From assembly GCA_018648265.1 (NCBI GenBank), contig JABGRN010000003.1, positions 1 to 64,000 on the forward strand: 64,000 nt of DNA, in the 5' to 3' direction. Shown piece after piece: positions 12,506-63,439 of the stretch. The stretch's first letter is position 1. Each line of letters starts with the position of its first letter. The stretch is from Prolixibacteraceae bacterium. Its GTDB lineage: Bacteria > Bacteroidota > Bacteroidia > Bacteroidales > Prolixibacteraceae. The position numbers and the translations under genes are program-made. The notes under the pieces are model-generated. The model had not been told where the DNA came from. It saw only the letters and a list, made by a program, of their open reading frames with translations, and made no database searches.

Positions 12506-12614
12506 ATGAAAGAATAATTACAATAGCCCTTGAATTCGATAAAAAAGGAAATTGGGATGATGTTGTCAAAAACCCTTTCAGGCTGGGTTGCGCCAACCAC
12601 CAGAACACTAAATT
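12506..12614 (+). pseudogene. Decayed copy of the small helical-protein gene found at 13994
   Basis: The stretch ATGAAAGAATAATTACAA ... CTTGAATTCGATAAAAAA aligns base for base (one 1-nt offset) with the start of the gene at 13994 but has early TAA and TAG codons. The 30 bp before it (ACTTTCAATTTT...AAACTATGAAA) match 13875-13906 rather than the immediate upstream of 13994. This fits loss of the segment between two ATGAAA words that are still present at 13901 and 13994. The copy fades out where the 126-bp repeat begins. Confidence 0.65.
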
Positions 12615-12740
12615 ATACCGATTTAACAATCAAATGTCGCATGCTTTCGTTTTACTCAGCATACTCCTTTGTTGTAGTATCGGCATTAACCATTATAAAC
12701 TTCGAAATTGCCATGCGGCATTTCAAAGTACAATTGGTAT
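12615..12740 (+). repeat. 126-bp palindromic MITE-like repeat, copy A
   Basis: This 126-bp unit starts ATACCGATT and ends AATTGGTAT, which are imperfect inverted termini. It matches 62229-62354 with only two differences that I can see. Inside, AAATGTCGCAT near the left end pairs with ATGCGGCATTT near the right end, and ATACT/AGTAT near the centre form the tip, so the whole unit is an imperfect long hairpin. It has no ORF. No clear target duplication is visible. Confidence 0.85.
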
Positions 12741-12753
12741 TATTAGCTTAAGT

Positions 12754-13713
12754 TTATTTATTGAATCGATATTTAGTTGTTCTTTTATCACCTTGTTTTT
12801 CAATAATTTTATCTGCCACTGCTACTTTCAAATCTCTACTTGCAGTTGCAGAAGAAATATTTTTAAATGCTCGTAAATAATCTTGTCTTGAGAAAAATTT
12901 ATTTCCAATAATTTCTTTAAAATGAATTATTCTGTCGTTATTTGTTAAATTAATATTTTGAATTTTTAATAAATCTTCAAGTGCTTCTTTGATAATTTCA
13001 AGCATGAATTCAATAAAGGAGGTTGAGCTTCCTTGTTTATCCGATTTTCCCAAAACACGATAATATTCCTGTTGCTTAGCTTTTACAATACTTTCAATCG
13101 GGAGAAATTTAAAAATGGAAGAGTGTTCTTTTAAAATCAAAGTTTGCCATAATCTTCCCATTCTTCCATTTCCATCTAAGAATGGATGAATGAATTCAAA
13201 TTCATAATGAAAAACACAACTTTTAATTAAAATCAAATCATCATCATTTTTAAGATAATCAAAAAGGTCTTTCATTAACGAAAATACCATTTCTCCAGGT
13301 GGGGCAATATGCGCTATGTTGCTCCCTTTTACAATCCCAACTGAAGTTGTTCGAAGTTTTCCGGGACTTTCAATTAAATCTTTCATTAAAATTTCATCCG
13401 CTTTGTACATTGATTTTAAGTCGAAGACTTTGAGTTTATCAAGTTTATTATAAACGTTAATTGCATTCTTAACTTCTATAATATCTTTCTTGGGAGCTAA
13501 AACTCTTTTATTGTTAAACAAATCTGTAATTTGCTCAACCGTTAAAGTATTTCCCTCAATTTCAAGTGAAGACTGAATGGTTTTTATTCTGTTTTTTTTT
13601 CTTAATTCGGTTGGTGGTTTATTTAAATGAGCAGCGTTTATTTCTCCAATTTTTTCTGAAATAGAAGCGATTAAATTTAAAATCTTATTTGTTATTTCGT
13701 AGGGTGGTTTCAT
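12754..13713 (-). CDS. Fic-domain protein (probable AMPylator or related transferase)
   Basis: A 319-aa protein with the Fic core HPFLDGNGRMGR (about residues 176-187; consensus HPFxDGNGRxxR) including the catalytic His. An N-terminal inhibitory helix motif SSLEIEGN lies near residues 49-56, the (S/T)xxxE(G/N) pattern of class II Fic proteins whose Glu blocks ATP. The C-terminal region (KEIIGNKFFSRQDYLRAFKNISSATASRDLK) is a winged-helix-like DNA-binding domain, common in Fic proteins that control their own promoter. It is complete and alone; there is no separate antitoxin gene. A perfect palindrome lies just upstream of its ATG. Confidence 0.92.
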   Translation of the reverse strand: MKPPYEITNKILNLIASISEKIGEINAAHLNKPPTELRKKNRIKTIQSSLEIEGNTLTVEQITDLFNNKRVLAPKKDIIEVKNAINVYNKLDKLKVFDLKSMYKADEILMKDLIESPGKLRTTSVGIVKGSNIAHIAPPGEMVFSLMKDLFDYLKNDDDLILIKSCVFHYEFEFIHPFLDGNGRMGRLWQTLILKEHSSIFKFLPIESIVKAKQQEYYRVLGKSDKQGSSTSFIEFMLEIIKEALEDLLKIQNINLTNNDRIIHFKEIIGNKFFSRQDYLRAFKNISSATASRDLKVAVADKIIEKQGDKRTTKYRFNK

Positions 13714-23873: not shown

Positions 23874-25001
23874 ATGAAAAATTTAACCAGAAGGGAATTT
23901 GCCAATTTATCGGCCACTGTTGTTTCCGGCACTATTTTAACGGGAATAACGGCTTGCAATCCAAATGAAACTAAATTGGATTTAAGAAAAATACCGATAA
24001 CAAAAAAAGTTATCGATACACATTTGCATGTTGTTCCGGAAACTATCGACAGGTGTTTACAGGTAATGGATGAAAACTTTATCAGATATGGATTGAATAT
24101 CGGAATCAGGGGAGAAAGTTTTGATAAGTTTATGCCAAAAATATCAAAGCTAAAAAACAGGCTTGGTGCAATGTATGCTTTTGATTGGGACTTGTGGAAG
24201 ACCGATCTTAAATTCCCGGAAAAAGCACCCGATTTGCTCGAACGGGCAGTCGAAAATGGAGCTTTGGGTTTAAAAAATTTTAAAGACCTTGGCCTGACTG
24301 TTACCGACAACAACGGGAAGTTGGTAAAAATTGATGATCCGCGTTTGATGCCAATTTGGGAAAAAGCACAACAACTGAATACGGTAGTGGCGTTTCATAC
24401 AACCGACCCGGTAGCATTTTTTGAACCCTGGACCCCGGAAAATGAAAGATGGGAAGAGCTGGAATTACATCCCAATTGGTCGTTTGCCGATCGTTCAAAA
24501 TATCCTGAAAGAAATTCAGTACTTGAGCAACGCAACAATGTTATAAAATCGTTTAAAGAGATAACATTTCATTGTGCCCACGTAGCAAATAATTCGGAAA
24601 ACTTAAATGTTTTGGACGAATGGATGGATGAAATGCCAAATATTGTTGTGGATTTATCTGCCCGGTTTGGCGAACTAGGAAGACATCCAGCCGCTGATGG
24701 TTTCAGGTTTTTCGAAAAACACCAGGAGAGAATAATGTTTGGTACCGACCGAATGTTTTGGAAAGATGGAGAGGTGCAAGGTGCCGGGCCTTCAAAAATA
24801 TTTACAAAGGAGGAAGACAATAAATTCTACCAATCGCACTGGAGATACCTTCAAACTACCGATAAACAATTTGATCATCCAACTCCAATTCAAGGCAACT
24901 GGAAAATTAACGGTATTGGGCTTCCCGAAGAAATCCTGAAAAAAATTTATTGGGACAATGCCTACAAACTTTACAACCTTAAACAATTTGGGGTTCGATA
25001 A
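23874..25001 (+). CDS. Amidohydrolase_2-family metal-dependent hydrolase with Tat-like signal
   Basis: A 375-aa protein beginning MKNLTRREFANLSATVVS, a twin-arginine pattern followed by a hydrophobic stretch and a Cys (TGITACNPN), so a Tat-exported lipoprotein is plausible. The amidohydrolase barrel motifs are seen: DTHLHVV (HxH), AFHTTDP, FHCAHVAN and MFGTDRMFW (metal Asp). The family hydrolyses or decarboxylates small molecules; its substrate is unknown. It ends the four-gene polysaccharide cluster, and a partial copy of the 126-bp repeat begins 9 bp after its stop. Confidence 0.88.
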   Translation: MKNLTRREFANLSATVVSGTILTGITACNPNETKLDLRKIPITKKVIDTHLHVVPETIDRCLQVMDENFIRYGLNIGIRGESFDKFMPKISKLKNRLGAMYAFDWDLWKTDLKFPEKAPDLLERAVENGALGLKNFKDLGLTVTDNNGKLVKIDDPRLMPIWEKAQQLNTVVAFHTTDPVAFFEPWTPENERWEELELHPNWSFADRSKYPERNSVLEQRNNVIKSFKEITFHCAHVANNSENLNVLDEWMDEMPNIVVDLSARFGELGRHPAADGFRFFEKHQERIMFGTDRMFWKDGEVQGAGPSKIFTKEEDNKFYQSHWRYLQTTDKQFDHPTPIQGNWKINGIGLPEEILKKIYWDNAYKLYNLKQFGVR

Positions 25002-25009
25002 TATTCATA

Positions 25010-25093
25010 ATACCGATTTGACAACTAAATGTCGCAAACTTTCACTTTGTTCAGTCTGCTTCTTTGTTGTATTATCGGCATTAACCACTCATT
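25010..25093 (+). repeat. Partial, diverged copy of the 126-bp repeat (copy B)
   Basis: Matches roughly the first 84 bases of the 126-bp unit (ATACCGATT ... ATCGGCATTAACCA) with about ten substitutions, then homology stops. The right inverted terminus is missing. It sits between the amidohydrolase and GNAT genes. Confidence 0.75.
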
Positions 25094-25105
25094 TAATAAT
25101 CATAA

Positions 25106-25528
25106 ATGAAAATTTATCAGTGTATAGAGATTTCAGCAGAAGTGATTATAGCATTTAATGAATTGATTCCACAACTTAACGAGGAAAGTAAAACTCCATC
25201 TAAAGATTATTTGGATGAAATTATTAATTCAAAAAACTCATACATTTTTTTAGCTGAAGAAGAAAAAATTGTCGGTACTCTAACTTTAATTATAAATCAA
25301 ATGCCCTCGGGTAAAAAAGCCTGGATTGAAGATGTTGTTGTGAACAGTAAAATGAGAGGCCGGGGTATTGGGGAAAAACTAATAGAATTTGCAGTTGAAT
25401 TTGCCAAAAAACATGAAATTTCAAAAATTGACTTAAGCTCAAAACCTGAAAGAATTGCAGCAAATAATCTTTATAAAAAACTTGGTTTTAAACAACGGGA
25501 AACAAATGTTTATCGGCTAAAATTCTAA
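25106..25528 (+). CDS. GNAT-family N-acetyltransferase
   Basis: A 140-aa single GNAT domain with the acetyl-CoA loop MRGRGIGEKLIEFAVEFA (R/QxxGxG/A form) and the C-terminal LYKKLGFKQRETNVYRL. The acceptor is unknown. It converges on the sulfatase gene and overlaps its last codons by 4 bp. The start lies 12 bp beyond the end of the partial 126-bp repeat, so that repeat provides part of its leader. Confidence 0.9.
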   Translation: MKIYQCIEISAEVIIAFNELIPQLNEESKTPSKDYLDEIINSKNSYIFLAEEEKIVGTLTLIINQMPSGKKAWIEDVVVNSKMRGRGIGEKLIEFAVEFAKKHEISKIDLSSKPERIAANNLYKKLGFKQRETNVYRLKF

Positions 25529-36649: not shown

Positions 36650-37068
36650 AAGCAGGCTTTGATTGATTGATCATCTTTCCTTTTTATTTTATGATTTAAT
36701 TGAATGTTTTTTAATCAATTAATTCCTCGTGGCTTGCCGCGAGGTTTCCTTATATTCTCCCCTAATTTTAGGGGAGATGTCAGTCGAATGACTGACAGGG
36801 GGGTAAAATAATGAAAATTCGGTTTTTCAGCTTTTTTGCTGAAAATAAAGTTGGCGAATTACCCCTTGGCTTGCCACGGGGATAGTCAACTTTAAGAATT
36901 TTCTTTATTGTGATTTCTAATACCATTTTGAAGAACAATTGGTATAATTTGTAGGCAGGTAAAATCTAACGCTTTGTATTTTTCTGTTGATTGAGAATTG
37001 CAAATCCTTGATTACTATTTTTGAAACATGCCAAATCCACTTTAACTATCTTATTTTTTTGTTAAATA
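36650..37068. other. Gene-free region with a cluster of perfect hairpins
   Basis: Four hairpins are visible: CCTCG-TGGC-TT-GCC-GCGAGG at 36725-36744; CTCCCCTAA/TTAGGGGAG at 36757-36776; GTCAGTC/GACTGAC at 36779-36796; and CCCC-TTGGC-TT-GCCAC-GGGG at 36862-36881. The first and last share a TGGCTTGCC core. At 36920-36945 an ATACCA ... AATTGGTAT mini inverted repeat looks like the two ends of the 126-bp element joined together. No gene seen. Confidence 0.6.
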
Positions 37069-59358: not shown

Positions 59359-62163
59359 TTATTGATCTTCCTTCTCCCTATTTTCTAATCGGTATTCATC
59401 TTTCTCTTTACTCTCCCGAATCATGTCCACATTATTATCCATTATTGGCGATTCTTCCAAAGCTTTCCAATCGAAATTTTCATCGAACGGGTCAAGTGCT
59501 TTTTGTGGGTCGAAAACCCGTGGGTCTGCTGCAATAGCTTTGTAAGGTTCGTAATTTGGTGTGTTGGTGAAAAAATCGGATAAATCTGTCGCGCCGGCAT
59601 CGTACTGATTTAAATAGGGCATTCCCAAAATATTCCAGAAAGTTTTAAAAATACTTCCAAAACTATAATGGCCGTGGCTCACGTAATCTTTTTTCACCCA
59701 AGGCGAAATAAGCATTAAAATGCTTCGGTGTGCATCAATGTGGTCAACGCCATTTTGCGCATCGTCTTCGGTAATTACAATCAACATATTTTCCCAATAA
59801 GGCGTGTGCGACAAGTATTCCACAATCCGCCCAACTGCCAAATCATTGTCGGCCATGTAACTCTCGCGGAAAGGAAATCCAGCTTCTGGTCGCTCACCGG
59901 CTCCGTGGTCGTTGGGAATAATTACAGTTATAAAAGCCGGCATGGTATCCTTACCATTCATCCATTTTTCTTCAAATTCTTTTTGAAATTGGTCAATGCG
60001 AAACTGGTCGGGAATTGCCATATTATAAGTTGGAAATTGTTTTGAAGTGCGATCCCAAATTGGCTTTGGAAGCGGATAATTTATGTAATGCCTGATTCCT
60101 TCATATTTGTACTTTTCATCATAAATTCCCGGTTCAAACATTATACTAAATCCAAAGTTGAAAAAATCGATATTGTTACGTTCCAGATGATCCCACATTG
60201 AACCGGCTTCGTTGTAATCTTCAGGATAAATTGCTCCGGCAGCTCCGTTCATCGCAAAAACTCCGGGTGCATTCGAGTTAAAATCAAAGGAACGGTTTCC
60301 TCCGTAACTTGCTGCGGTACAGGTTTCCACCCATTCATTAGGATAAGTATTAACCAGCCAGCGATGACCATCGGCAGAAACATCTGCATCAACATAAAAA
60401 TTATCGCTTATTGCAAAATCGTTTGCAATCTTTAAATGGTTCGACATTATGCTGGCATTTTCAACAGAAGCTGTTCTTTTGGAATTCTGAAATGAAACTC
60501 CGGAACCATACCGAGCCAATTCAGCTTCTCCATTACCTTTTTCAACTTGACCAAAAACTTCGTCGTAAGTTCTGTTTTCTTTCGAAATAAAAACAATGTG
60601 TTTTATTGGGCTCTCTTTTTCTCCCGGATAAAGTGGAACCGGATTATTTTTACGCCATTCAAATTTCTCGGACGAGGCTTTTTCAAAATTGAAATTGTTG
60701 GTAATTACCTGATTGGTATAATTTTTTAATTCTTCATCAGTAGGAATATCCAGAATTTGTACAGAGCCTTTCATTAACGAGCCAATATAACTACCCTCCG
60801 GACCTCTTTCGAAATTTACTCCTCCGTTTGGCCCACTTCCAAAACCTTTGGCATTTGCAATAATTAATTTTTTACCATTGTTACTAACTTCAACTTTAGC
60901 TGGAAACCACCCAGTTGGAATGTGCCCGATTACTTCAAGTTTTTCAACATCGATTACCGCTACTGCATTTATTCCCGACTCGGCAACATACAACCGTTTA
61001 TTGTCTGGCGAAAGTGCCAAACCAAAAGGTATTACACCACGAAATTGTTTAACTCGGTCGTCGGGTTTTAGGAAAATGGTATTTACAACGGTATCTTTTT
61101 CAATGGAAATTACCGAAATATTATCGTTTGTTCCGTTGCTAACAAAAACGTATTTGTCGGTTGCTACCAATGAATTTGGACTTGCACCGCCAACCGCTGG
61201 AATATCTTCTACTTTTGCTCCAACCAAATTTCCGGTTTTGGTTTTTGCAATAACTTTCGGATTCTCAGGATTTTCTAAACTAACCGTAAAAACAGAAAAT
61301 GCTTCAGGAGAATTCATCTCTCCCAAACCAGGAACTGAAAGACTATCATTTTCAATTCCTTTAATCATTTCCTCGCTGCCATACTCGAAAGCAGGATATT
61401 TCAGTGCTTTTTCTCCTACGTTTTTTTCGGTAATCCCGTTTATTAAATTGTATTCAAACATGCCCACATTGGCAACATAAATTTTCTTTTCGTCGGGTGA
61501 CAAACAAATTCCAAACGGGTATCTTCCAACCGGAACATTGTGTTCTATTTTATTGGTTTCGGTATTTGCGATTACCATTCTAAAACCGATTTGGTCAACT
61601 GCATAAAGTTTTTTGCCATCTTCAGAAAGCGTTAAATCGCCAATGTAACCGTGCGAATAATCTACACTGTCGGAAACAAACGAGCAGTCGATAGAATCTT
61701 TTTTCTCGCCAGTTAGAATATCAAAAATGTATATTTTATTCGTTTGTCCGCCGGCAACATAAACCACGCTGTTGTCTTTTGAAATGGCAAGTCCCATAAA
61801 AACAGATGCCAGAACTCCTTCATCTGTTGAAGGACCGGGTGGCACTTGCTGAACTTCAGGATTCTCAGACAAAATATTTCGGATAATAGTTATAGAAAGC
61901 GGACTTGTTCCGGAGTTTGCTGTTATTGCAGTATTCCCATCTGGACTTAAAGTTAAACCAAATGGATGCGGCGCAATAACAATACTTTTACCTGCCGGTG
62001 CTACAATTCGTCCGTTGGGAATTATAGTTTCGCCCGTTTTGTCGATTGTTACAAAACGGTCGCCTGCCGGTGCTGTTATAATCCAAGGGTTTATTTCTTT
62101 ATTTTTAGAACACGAAAAAAGAATTGCGACTCCAAGCAAAAGAAAAATTATTTTGGCTTTCAT
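59359..62163 (-). CDS. Beta-propeller (YncE-like)/phosphoesterase fusion lipoprotein
   Basis: About 934 aa from ATG 62163, which starts a lipoprotein signal (MKAKIIFLLLGVAILFSCSK); the frame extends upstream to 62256 only by running into the 126-bp repeat. Residues 40-480 are a seven-bladed YncE/lactonase-like propeller (ANSGTSPLSITII; NKIYIFDILTG; YPFGICLSPDEKKIYVANVG). The C-terminal half is an alkaline-phosphatase-like phosphoesterase domain (HIVFISKENRTYDEVFGQ, DNFYVDADVSADGHRW, VITEDDAQNGVDHIDAHRS). This architecture is known in Bacteroidota; the substrate is unclear. It is anchored in a membrane. Confidence 0.9.
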   Translation of the reverse strand: MKAKIIFLLLGVAILFSCSKNKEINPWIITAPAGDRFVTIDKTGETIIPNGRIVAPAGKSIVIAPHPFGLTLSPDGNTAITANSGTSPLSITIIRNILSENPEVQQVPPGPSTDEGVLASVFMGLAISKDNSVVYVAGGQTNKIYIFDILTGEKKDSIDCSFVSDSVDYSHGYIGDLTLSEDGKKLYAVDQIGFRMVIANTETNKIEHNVPVGRYPFGICLSPDEKKIYVANVGMFEYNLINGITEKNVGEKALKYPAFEYGSEEMIKGIENDSLSVPGLGEMNSPEAFSVFTVSLENPENPKVIAKTKTGNLVGAKVEDIPAVGGASPNSLVATDKYVFVSNGTNDNISVISIEKDTVVNTIFLKPDDRVKQFRGVIPFGLALSPDNKRLYVAESGINAVAVIDVEKLEVIGHIPTGWFPAKVEVSNNGKKLIIANAKGFGSGPNGGVNFERGPEGSYIGSLMKGSVQILDIPTDEELKNYTNQVITNNFNFEKASSEKFEWRKNNPVPLYPGEKESPIKHIVFISKENRTYDEVFGQVEKGNGEAELARYGSGVSFQNSKRTASVENASIMSNHLKIANDFAISDNFYVDADVSADGHRWLVNTYPNEWVETCTAASYGGNRSFDFNSNAPGVFAMNGAAGAIYPEDYNEAGSMWDHLERNNIDFFNFGFSIMFEPGIYDEKYKYEGIRHYINYPLPKPIWDRTSKQFPTYNMAIPDQFRIDQFQKEFEEKWMNGKDTMPAFITVIIPNDHGAGERPEAGFPFRESYMADNDLAVGRIVEYLSHTPYWENMLIVITEDDAQNGVDHIDAHRSILMLISPWVKKDYVSHGHYSFGSIFKTFWNILGMPYLNQYDAGATDLSDFFTNTPNYEPYKAIAADPRVFDPQKALDPFDENFDWKALEESPIMDNNVDMIRESKEKDEYRLENREKEDQ

Positions 62164-62228
62164 AAGAATTATTTTTAAGAATTGAAATTTAGTATTTTTT
62201 AGTAACAAAGTTGGTGAGATAATTAATA

Positions 62229-62354
62229 ATACCGATTTAACAACCAAATGTCGCATACTTTCGTTTTACTCAGCATACTCCTTTGTTGTAGTATCGGCAT
62301 TAACCATTATAAACTTCGAAATTGCCATGCGGCATTTCAAAGTACAATTGGTAT
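62229..62354 (+). repeat. 126-bp palindromic MITE-like repeat, copy C
   Basis: Starts ATACCGATT, ends AATTGGTAT, and differs from the copy at 12615 in two bases. It lies 66 bp upstream of the propeller/phosphoesterase start, in the intergenic gap. The same hairpin pairing is seen (AAATGTCGCAT with ATGCGGCATTT). No transposase is nearby. Confidence 0.85.
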
Positions 62355-62396
62355 AAAAACCTAAACCAGATAAACTAGAAAAGATAATTTTCAAAA

Positions 62397-62575: not shown

Positions 62576-63439
62576 TTATTTATTTAACTCAATTTCCCAG
62601 CCGTAATCTACATATTCCCAATTAAAGTTGTCTCCTTCAATATTTATTAAAAGATAGCCCTCTTCAGTACCATGATAAGTTCCTCCCCACCAGCTTGCCG
62701 ATACCGCGCCTGCAGTTATAAATTGAACATCCTTCACTTTTATTTCTTCATACAAATGCATGTGGCCTTGTAAAACTAATTTCAGATTTTTACCTTCGAA
62801 CATATCCCAGATTTCCTTGAAATTTTTAAAAGTATCGGTATTTGTATATTTCCCATGTAACACAGGATAATAAACAGATAAAAAAGGAACGTGAACAGAA
62901 ATAATGATTGGAGTTTCAGCATCAACTTTTTCTAGATCTTCTTTCAGCCAAAGTTTTTGTTTTTCATCAACTACCGAATTGCTGGTATTTAGAACAATAA
63001 AATGCCATCCTTTATTATCGAAAGAATAATAACTTTCATGTATATAATTTTCAAACATCCCTTCATTATACAGTGGGTTATTTTTTTCACAGCCAAAAAA
63101 TCGGTCGTGGTTTCCAACTGTTGCGTAATAATCTATATCAGAGTTTGCAATAACATTGGCATATCGTTTATAAAGTTCATGAGCTGTTTTGGCATCTTCT
63201 CCCAAAACATCAATATCAACATTGTCGCCACCAGTTAGAATAAAATCTATGTTATGCGTTTTTGCCGATTCGATTGCTTTCTCAATTCCTTGAAAACAGT
63301 TATTGTCGCGTTTGTTTAAATGAATATCAGTAAAAAAAGCAAAGCTGAATTTGTTAATTTTCTCTGGATTATCTGGCTGAGCAGCTCCAACAAAACTAAT
63401 AGTCAAAATGAAGACAAAAATATTAAGGAGATACTTCAT
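62576..63439 (-). CDS. Secreted calcineurin-like metallophosphoesterase
   Basis: 287 aa with signal peptide MKYLLNIFVFILTISFVGAAQ. Motifs of the calcineurin superfamily: FAFFTDIHLNKRDNN (DxH), LTGGDNVD (GDxxD-like), TVGNHDRFFG (GNHD), IISVHVPF (H) and LVLQGHMHLYEE (GHxH). Likely acts on extracellular or periplasmic phosphoesters. The length is typical. There is no lipobox or sorting domain. Confidence 0.92.
   Translation of the reverse strand: MKYLLNIFVFILTISFVGAAQPDNPEKINKFSFAFFTDIHLNKRDNNCFQGIEKAIESAKTHNIDFILTGGDNVDIDVLGEDAKTAHELYKRYANVIANSDIDYYATVGNHDRFFGCEKNNPLYNEGMFENYIHESYYSFDNKGWHFIVLNTSNSVVDEKQKLWLKEDLEKVDAETPIIISVHVPFLSVYYPVLHGKYTNTDTFKNFKEIWDMFEGKNLKLVLQGHMHLYEEIKVKDVQFITAGAVSASWWGGTYHGTEEGYLLINIEGDNFNWEYVDYGWEIELNK

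Follow-up and report, generated by a model that had tools for sequence, protein, structure and literature searches.

Background

Miniature inverted-repeat elements of the MITE type are short, non-coding transposable elements that are moved in trans, and in bacteria a MITE family is as a rule restricted to one genus or family and traceable to a known insertion sequence (IS). IS1031-type transposons of the IS5 family and the PIF/Harbinger Tourist MITEs duplicate a 3 bp target, TWA or TNA, and mPing uses TTA or TAA. IS200/IS605-type movement generates no target duplication; REPINs are proposed to move as folded single-stranded DNA via a Y1/HUH transposase (RAYT/TnpA-REP). Here, we examined a palindromic repeat in a 64,000 bp window, the whole stretch of DNA analysed, from a Prolixibacteraceae draft genome. 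It is best read as a new family of MITEs that is spread widely through Bacteroidota and has recently been active in the source genome, with an anatomy that resembles those of REPINs and CIR elements. We put the probability that the element is a MITE at roughly 0.85. No description of this element family was found in the literature searched.

Copies in the window

An earlier note on the window had reported two 126 bp copies, at 12615–12740 and 62229–62354, that differ at two positions, and a diverged partial copy at 25010–25093. All three were found as described, and the 126 bp copies are 98.4% identical. As the outermost A and T are part of 3 bp target site duplications (TSDs), the mobile unit is 124 bp rather than 126 bp, and is bounded by TACCGATT and AATTGGTA. 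The copy at 25010, which was also detected by a covariance model made from other genomes (E 2.5e-10), belongs to a second subfamily, B, and has been truncated on its right side. The features are as follows, with the minus strand being the one that folds into two hairpins.

12613–12615, no strand: left TSD (TTA) of the 12616–12739 element
12616–12739, minus strand: full-length subfamily A element, 124 bp
12616–12685, minus strand: hairpin module P1 (TACCGAT...ATCGGCA), 70 bp
12686–12688, no strand: internal TTA, the joint of P1 and P2, and a third TWA site in locus L256
12689–12739, minus strand: hairpin module P2 (ACCATT...AATTGGTA), with a conserved bulged A on the minus strand
12740–12742, no strand: right TSD (TTA) of the 12616–12739 element
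25011–25090, minus strand: subfamily B element, P1 intact and P2 lost, with TAA at 25008–25010
36920–36943, no strand: internally deleted relic TACCATTTTGAAGAACAATTGGTA, about 24 bp, between two TAA
62230–62353, minus strand: second full-length subfamily A element, with TAA duplications at 62227–62229 and 62354–62356

The first element is 14 nt from the stop codon of a Fic-domain gene (Pfam Fic/DOC; 12754–13713, minus strand), the copy at 25010 directly follows the stop codon of an amidohydrolase gene (23874–25001), and the element at 62230–62353 lies 5′ of a phosphoesterase-family gene (59359–62163, minus strand). Other neighbours include genes for a GNAT acetyltransferase (25106–25528) and a calcineurin-like phosphoesterase (62576–63439). 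Sequence near the end of the Fic-domain gene resembles that flanking a Y1 gene from a different genome (L185).

Copy number and context in the source genome

The source genome is Draconibacterium-like and comprises 5.58 Mb in 164 contigs, in which copy counts are lower bounds. When the 126 bp sequence was used as a query, at least 40 scored matches were returned, all 97–100% identical, and an inner 33-mer located at least 52 near-identical copies (97–100%; subfamily A), several of them cut by contig ends. The copy at 25010 was used to find the older subfamily B, which has about 30 copies that are 88–99% identical and further, more distant ones, giving more than 30 B copies, and more than 80 A and B copies in total. 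Most B copies extend past position 76, and many have an extra middle piece, TCCCGAAATAGATTCGGGACAGG. The end motif TWATACCRATT is present 204 times, against 12 for a reversed-pattern control, and the repeat is far beyond chance. Several contigs (C10, C26–C28, C42, C44, C57, C60, C100, C103, C115, C139 and C151) start inside or beside a copy, and the repeat thus appears to break the draft assembly.

The 28 A copies that were compared differ from their consensus by a mean of 0.75% and fall into a few sub-master types, each of which was seen with both TAA and TTA. We conclude that they are the product of a recent burst of amplification. Copies are intergenic at 73 of 80 usable sites, the genes next to them are unrelated, and most copies do not occupy shared positions. 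Subfamily A has an open frame (MSHAFVLLSILLCCSIGIN...) that is disrupted in most other lineages, and a coding role was rejected; the element is short, non-coding and multicopy, as MITEs are.

Insertion at TWA

In the orientation of the element, copies preceded by ..TA are followed by AA.. and those preceded by ..TT are followed by TA... From this pairing, the element is TACC...GGTA and the duplicated target is TWA. Among 112 copies in the source and other genomes, the flanks were TAA/TAA in 57, TTA/TTA in 40, mismatched at W in 6 and otherwise mutated in 9. The left and right TWA were identical in 97 of 103 copies from the source and many other genomes, where for the named-genome set the right-hand TWA, though not the left, was required by the search pattern. 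Two empty sites, each with a single TWA, were found in the source genome, where the joined flanks match uninterrupted paralogous sequence (L008 with L029, 90% identical over 474 bp; L005 with L030). Insertion therefore occurs at TWA, with duplication of those 3 bp. Both the TSDs and the empty sites that the earlier note had proposed looking for are present, and its suggestion of a recently active non-autonomous element is borne out by these and by the many near-identical copies at unrelated sites. The outcome that the note had named as contrary, no further copies in the genome and fixed positions in relatives, was not observed.

The ends are terminal inverted repeats (TIRs) of about 27 bp, TACCGATT and TACCAATT, with an internal AAATGYCGCAT in class I copies. 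A DDE cut-and-paste transposase that cuts with a 3 bp stagger would recognize the feet (the TIR shared with a related 165 bp family).

Two hairpins on the bottom strand

The ends and inner blocks had been taken to pair as one long imperfect hairpin. They do pair, and the plus strand folds in this way (−33.6 kcal/mol, z −4.7), but the minus strand folds better, into two hairpins (−44.2 kcal/mol, z −7.0). In 34 elements that are less than 78% alike, the arms of P1 and those of P2 are far more complementary within than between elements (z 13.0 and 13.3, respectively). A weaker third relation links the left arm of P1 with the right arm of P2 (z 4.4), and the other arm combinations in these elements gave no complementarity signal. 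RNAalifold predicted two hairpins with 36 pairs from 19 aligned bottom strands, with standard pairs in 91.8% of cells and double-sided changes in 21 of the 36 pairs. The covariation score was 0.399; shuffles gave 0.133 ± 0.014 and sliding gave no more than 0.117. There were 108 double-change cells against 36 ± 5, a number reached in 0 of 500 shuffles. While the sequence outside the conserved feet turns over, the fold of the bottom strand persists. The feet, TACCAATTGT..ACAATGGT-TAA-TGCCGAT..ATCGGTA with one bulged A, are invariant, in part through selection of the set, as the search pattern already demanded portions of these motifs. These alignments show that a predicted two-hairpin fold of the bottom strand has been kept by compensatory change across Bacteroidota.

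In 31 of the 34 elements the better fold is that of the bottom strand, and G.T pairs number 76 on the minus strand and 37 on the plus strand, counted from copies that share descent. The minus-strand fold and this preference point to a strand-specific RNA or to single-stranded DNA. A C-GNA-G triloop at the apex of P1, found in 6 of 34 elements where 0.8 would be expected, is suggestive of DNA hairpins. The fold may be under selection because it forms in transcripts, or while the DNA is single-stranded as it moves or replicates, and might make insertions tolerable or the element recognizable.

The earlier note had offered a structured RNA repeat as an alternative to a mobile element. A conserved structure is indeed carried, on the bottom strand and as two hairpins, not one. 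It is nonetheless unlikely that the element is first of all an RNA structure, retained by hosts because it acts in the processing or stability of mRNA, and that its mobility is secondary. The bottom-strand fold, the G.U preference and the covariation are what such an element would have, and of 44 sites with co-directional neighbours, 30 have the minus strand as sense and 14 as antisense (about p = 0.02, for loci that are not fully independent and copies that share descent). However, the neighbouring genes are unrelated, positions are mostly unshared and there has been a recent burst with target duplications. No Rfam family was matched above its gathering score, and the distribution is patchy, as far as can be judged from a lower bound with 8 candidates scored per genome.

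Template switching during replication corrects the arms of imperfect palindromes toward each other, and the element is a nested palindrome. The covariation could come partly from such correction. We doubt that all of the compensatory changes are a mutational by-product of this kind, arising with no selection on structure, as template switching should give no strand preference, whereas the minus strand has twice as many G.T wobbles and gives the better P1 fold in 33 of 34 elements. The bulged A, the internal loops and the sequences of the feet are also invariant across the set.

Modular structure and distribution

In Draconibacterium orientale, locus L256 has the arrangement TTA-[TACCGAT...ATCGGCA]-TTA-[TACCAAT...AATTGGTA]-TTA. 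In locus L277, which comes from a genome of a different family in the same class, only P1 is present, a lone hairpin with TTA on either side. Among related copies, the individual hairpins are bounded by TWA and by TACC/GGYA feet. Based on the arrangements in L256 and L277, the best reading of the standard element is a tandem pair of TWA-bounded hairpins, in which the inner TACC would have eroded to ACC.

A second MITE family in D. orientale (L224–L232) is 165 bp long, with at least nine copies that are 93–100% alike. It shares the outer TACC ends, the TWA target and the AAATGCCGCAT block of the 124 bp element, and a TIR of about TACCRAWTTGACnnnAAAATGYCGCAT is common to it and subfamily A.

Related elements, 72–85% identical where full length, were found in about half of the genomes of the same genus and elsewhere in the order, in other genera and families. 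A pattern made from the conserved core and right end matched at least 87 stretches in Bacteroidota and in metagenome-assembled genomes (MAGs) labelled Chlorobiota, including Draconibacterium, Maribellus, Marinifilum, Carboxylicivirga, Marinilabiliaceae, Crocinitomicaceae, and flavobacterial and Chitinophaga MAGs. When 395 genomes of the phylum were searched with the covariance model, at least four were positive, which with 8 candidates scored per genome is a floor and not a prevalence. The phages, plasmids and viral contigs searched yielded no related element, only two short matches at chance level.

Search for the mobilizing enzyme

The earlier note had pointed to a transposase gene with ATACC ends, and this was not found in the two genomes where it was sought. 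In the source genome, which contains four PF01609 genes and zero PF13586 genes, searches for PF01609, PF13586 and PF01797 returned no gene flanked by the ends of the element. The IS4/IS5-type transposases of this genome do not have such ends and were rejected as partners. In the complete genome of D. orientale, 94 TWATACCRATT ends were present, against 8 in the reversed-pattern control, and no pair of TACCRATT-pattern ends at a transposase-like spacing framed a transposase. Two end pairs, 1.0 kb (L223) and 1.6 kb (L240) apart, lie within ordinary genes, and the unpaired ends are decayed copies or chance matches; neither represents an autonomous element.

It is most unlikely that a Y1/HUH transposase moves the element in the form of folded single-stranded DNA, as proposed for REPINs. 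IS200/IS605-type movement leaves no duplication, yet 97 of 103 copies have matching TWA on their two sides. In favour of a Y1/HUH transposase are the two hairpins, conserved feet, alternative long-hairpin pairing and compensatory changes, all part of REPIN anatomy (PMC3116915), and the many intergenic copies in a genus where 35 of 37 members have Y1 genes. However, the Y1 flanks examined in the source genome and genus hold other palindromes, and a Y1/RAYT partner was rejected. Y1 genes of the YIHQNP type (subclass 2.6; L214 and L219) are flanked by copies of CCGCTGGCGCGGATTTGTAATCCGTGCC, which is likely the repeat partner of this RAYT subclass. Those of the YIxNQxxHH type (L031, L032 and L195–L213) have short, gene-specific palindromes close by on both sides, such as GGCTTTAGCC, GCACCTTTGGTGC and GACTCCAGCCGGAGTC; they belong to subclass 1.2, which has been described as lacking typical structures (PMC6006769). 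Thus, the resemblance to REPIN-type movement is an analogy of form, not membership. One 165 bp-type element (L212, 1936–2100) is inserted precisely at the TAA that terminates a Y1 transposase gene. It was rejected as a partner of that gene, which is surrounded by its own palindromes, and looks like a chance insertion that used the stop codon TAA as its target. Y1_Tnp Pfam matches in L033, L034 and L035 fall within open frames encoding about 1,200 aa, which resemble type IIG restriction-modification/N6-methylase proteins.

A retro-element or bacterial SINE, moving through reverse transcription of its folded minus-strand RNA, would combine a strand-specific, RNA-like fold with target duplication, but TIRs and a fixed 3 bp TWA target fit DNA transposons better and make this extremely improbable.

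For the MITE that we favour, a DDE mechanism does not require a covarying, strand-biased fold. It is possible, though improbable, that the folded bottom strand, with its two TWA-bounded hairpins, is the recognition unit. Integration with 3 bp duplication would then fall to an enzyme encoded by the host in single copy, of a kind so far not connected with transposition and co-evolving with the element across Bacteroidota as RAYTs do with REPINs.

Comparison with known systems

This MITE family spans many Bacteroidota lineages and carries a strong covariation signal. Among MITEs of this phylum, Porphyromonas has MITE239, MITE464 and BrickBuilt, and the TIRs of Porphyromonas MITEs (GAGACC..., ACGTCAG...) match ISPg elements of the IS5 family, whereas the TACC ends match none of those listed (PMC4596501). 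The ERIC/RU-1 and RUP elements are likewise palindromic intergenic MITEs of about 107–127 bp with TA-rich targets (PMC2229807, PMC10969869), but they target TA and form a single long hairpin, where here TWA is duplicated and there are two hairpins. The 3 bp target duplication is shared with IS1031-type IS5 transposons and the eukaryotic PIF/Harbinger Tourist MITEs; unlike in those systems, no transposase with the ends of the element was found in the source genome and D. orientale.

As in the CIR elements of Caulobacter and Brucella, in the account of Chen and Shapiro (2003) given in PMC2229807, two long inverted-repeat arms are joined by a linker. In that account CIRs have a GANTC loop motif, while here the linker is TTA and the ends are TACC/GGTA, and we claim no sequence relation. 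The likeness to REPINs, and to REP/BIME sequences with their RAYTs (PMC3116915, PMC6006769), extends to tandem hairpins with an alternative end-to-end pairing, to conserved feet, to compensatory changes in the spacer and to many intergenic copies with no gene of their own. Unlike those repeats, the element duplicates a 3 bp TWA and has no 5′ guide tag of the GTAG/GTGG type, the feet being TWA-TACC and TAA-TGCCGAT. Its copies do not flank a cognate Y1 gene in the genus flanks examined, where the RAYT genes carry other repeats. The mobilizing enzyme, if found, would test whether recognition of a folded strand is compatible with staggered-cut integration. The family shows a route to a two-hairpin element, the tandem joining of TWA-bounded hairpins, and it joins a structure like that of REPINs and CIRs with DDE-like insertion in one element.
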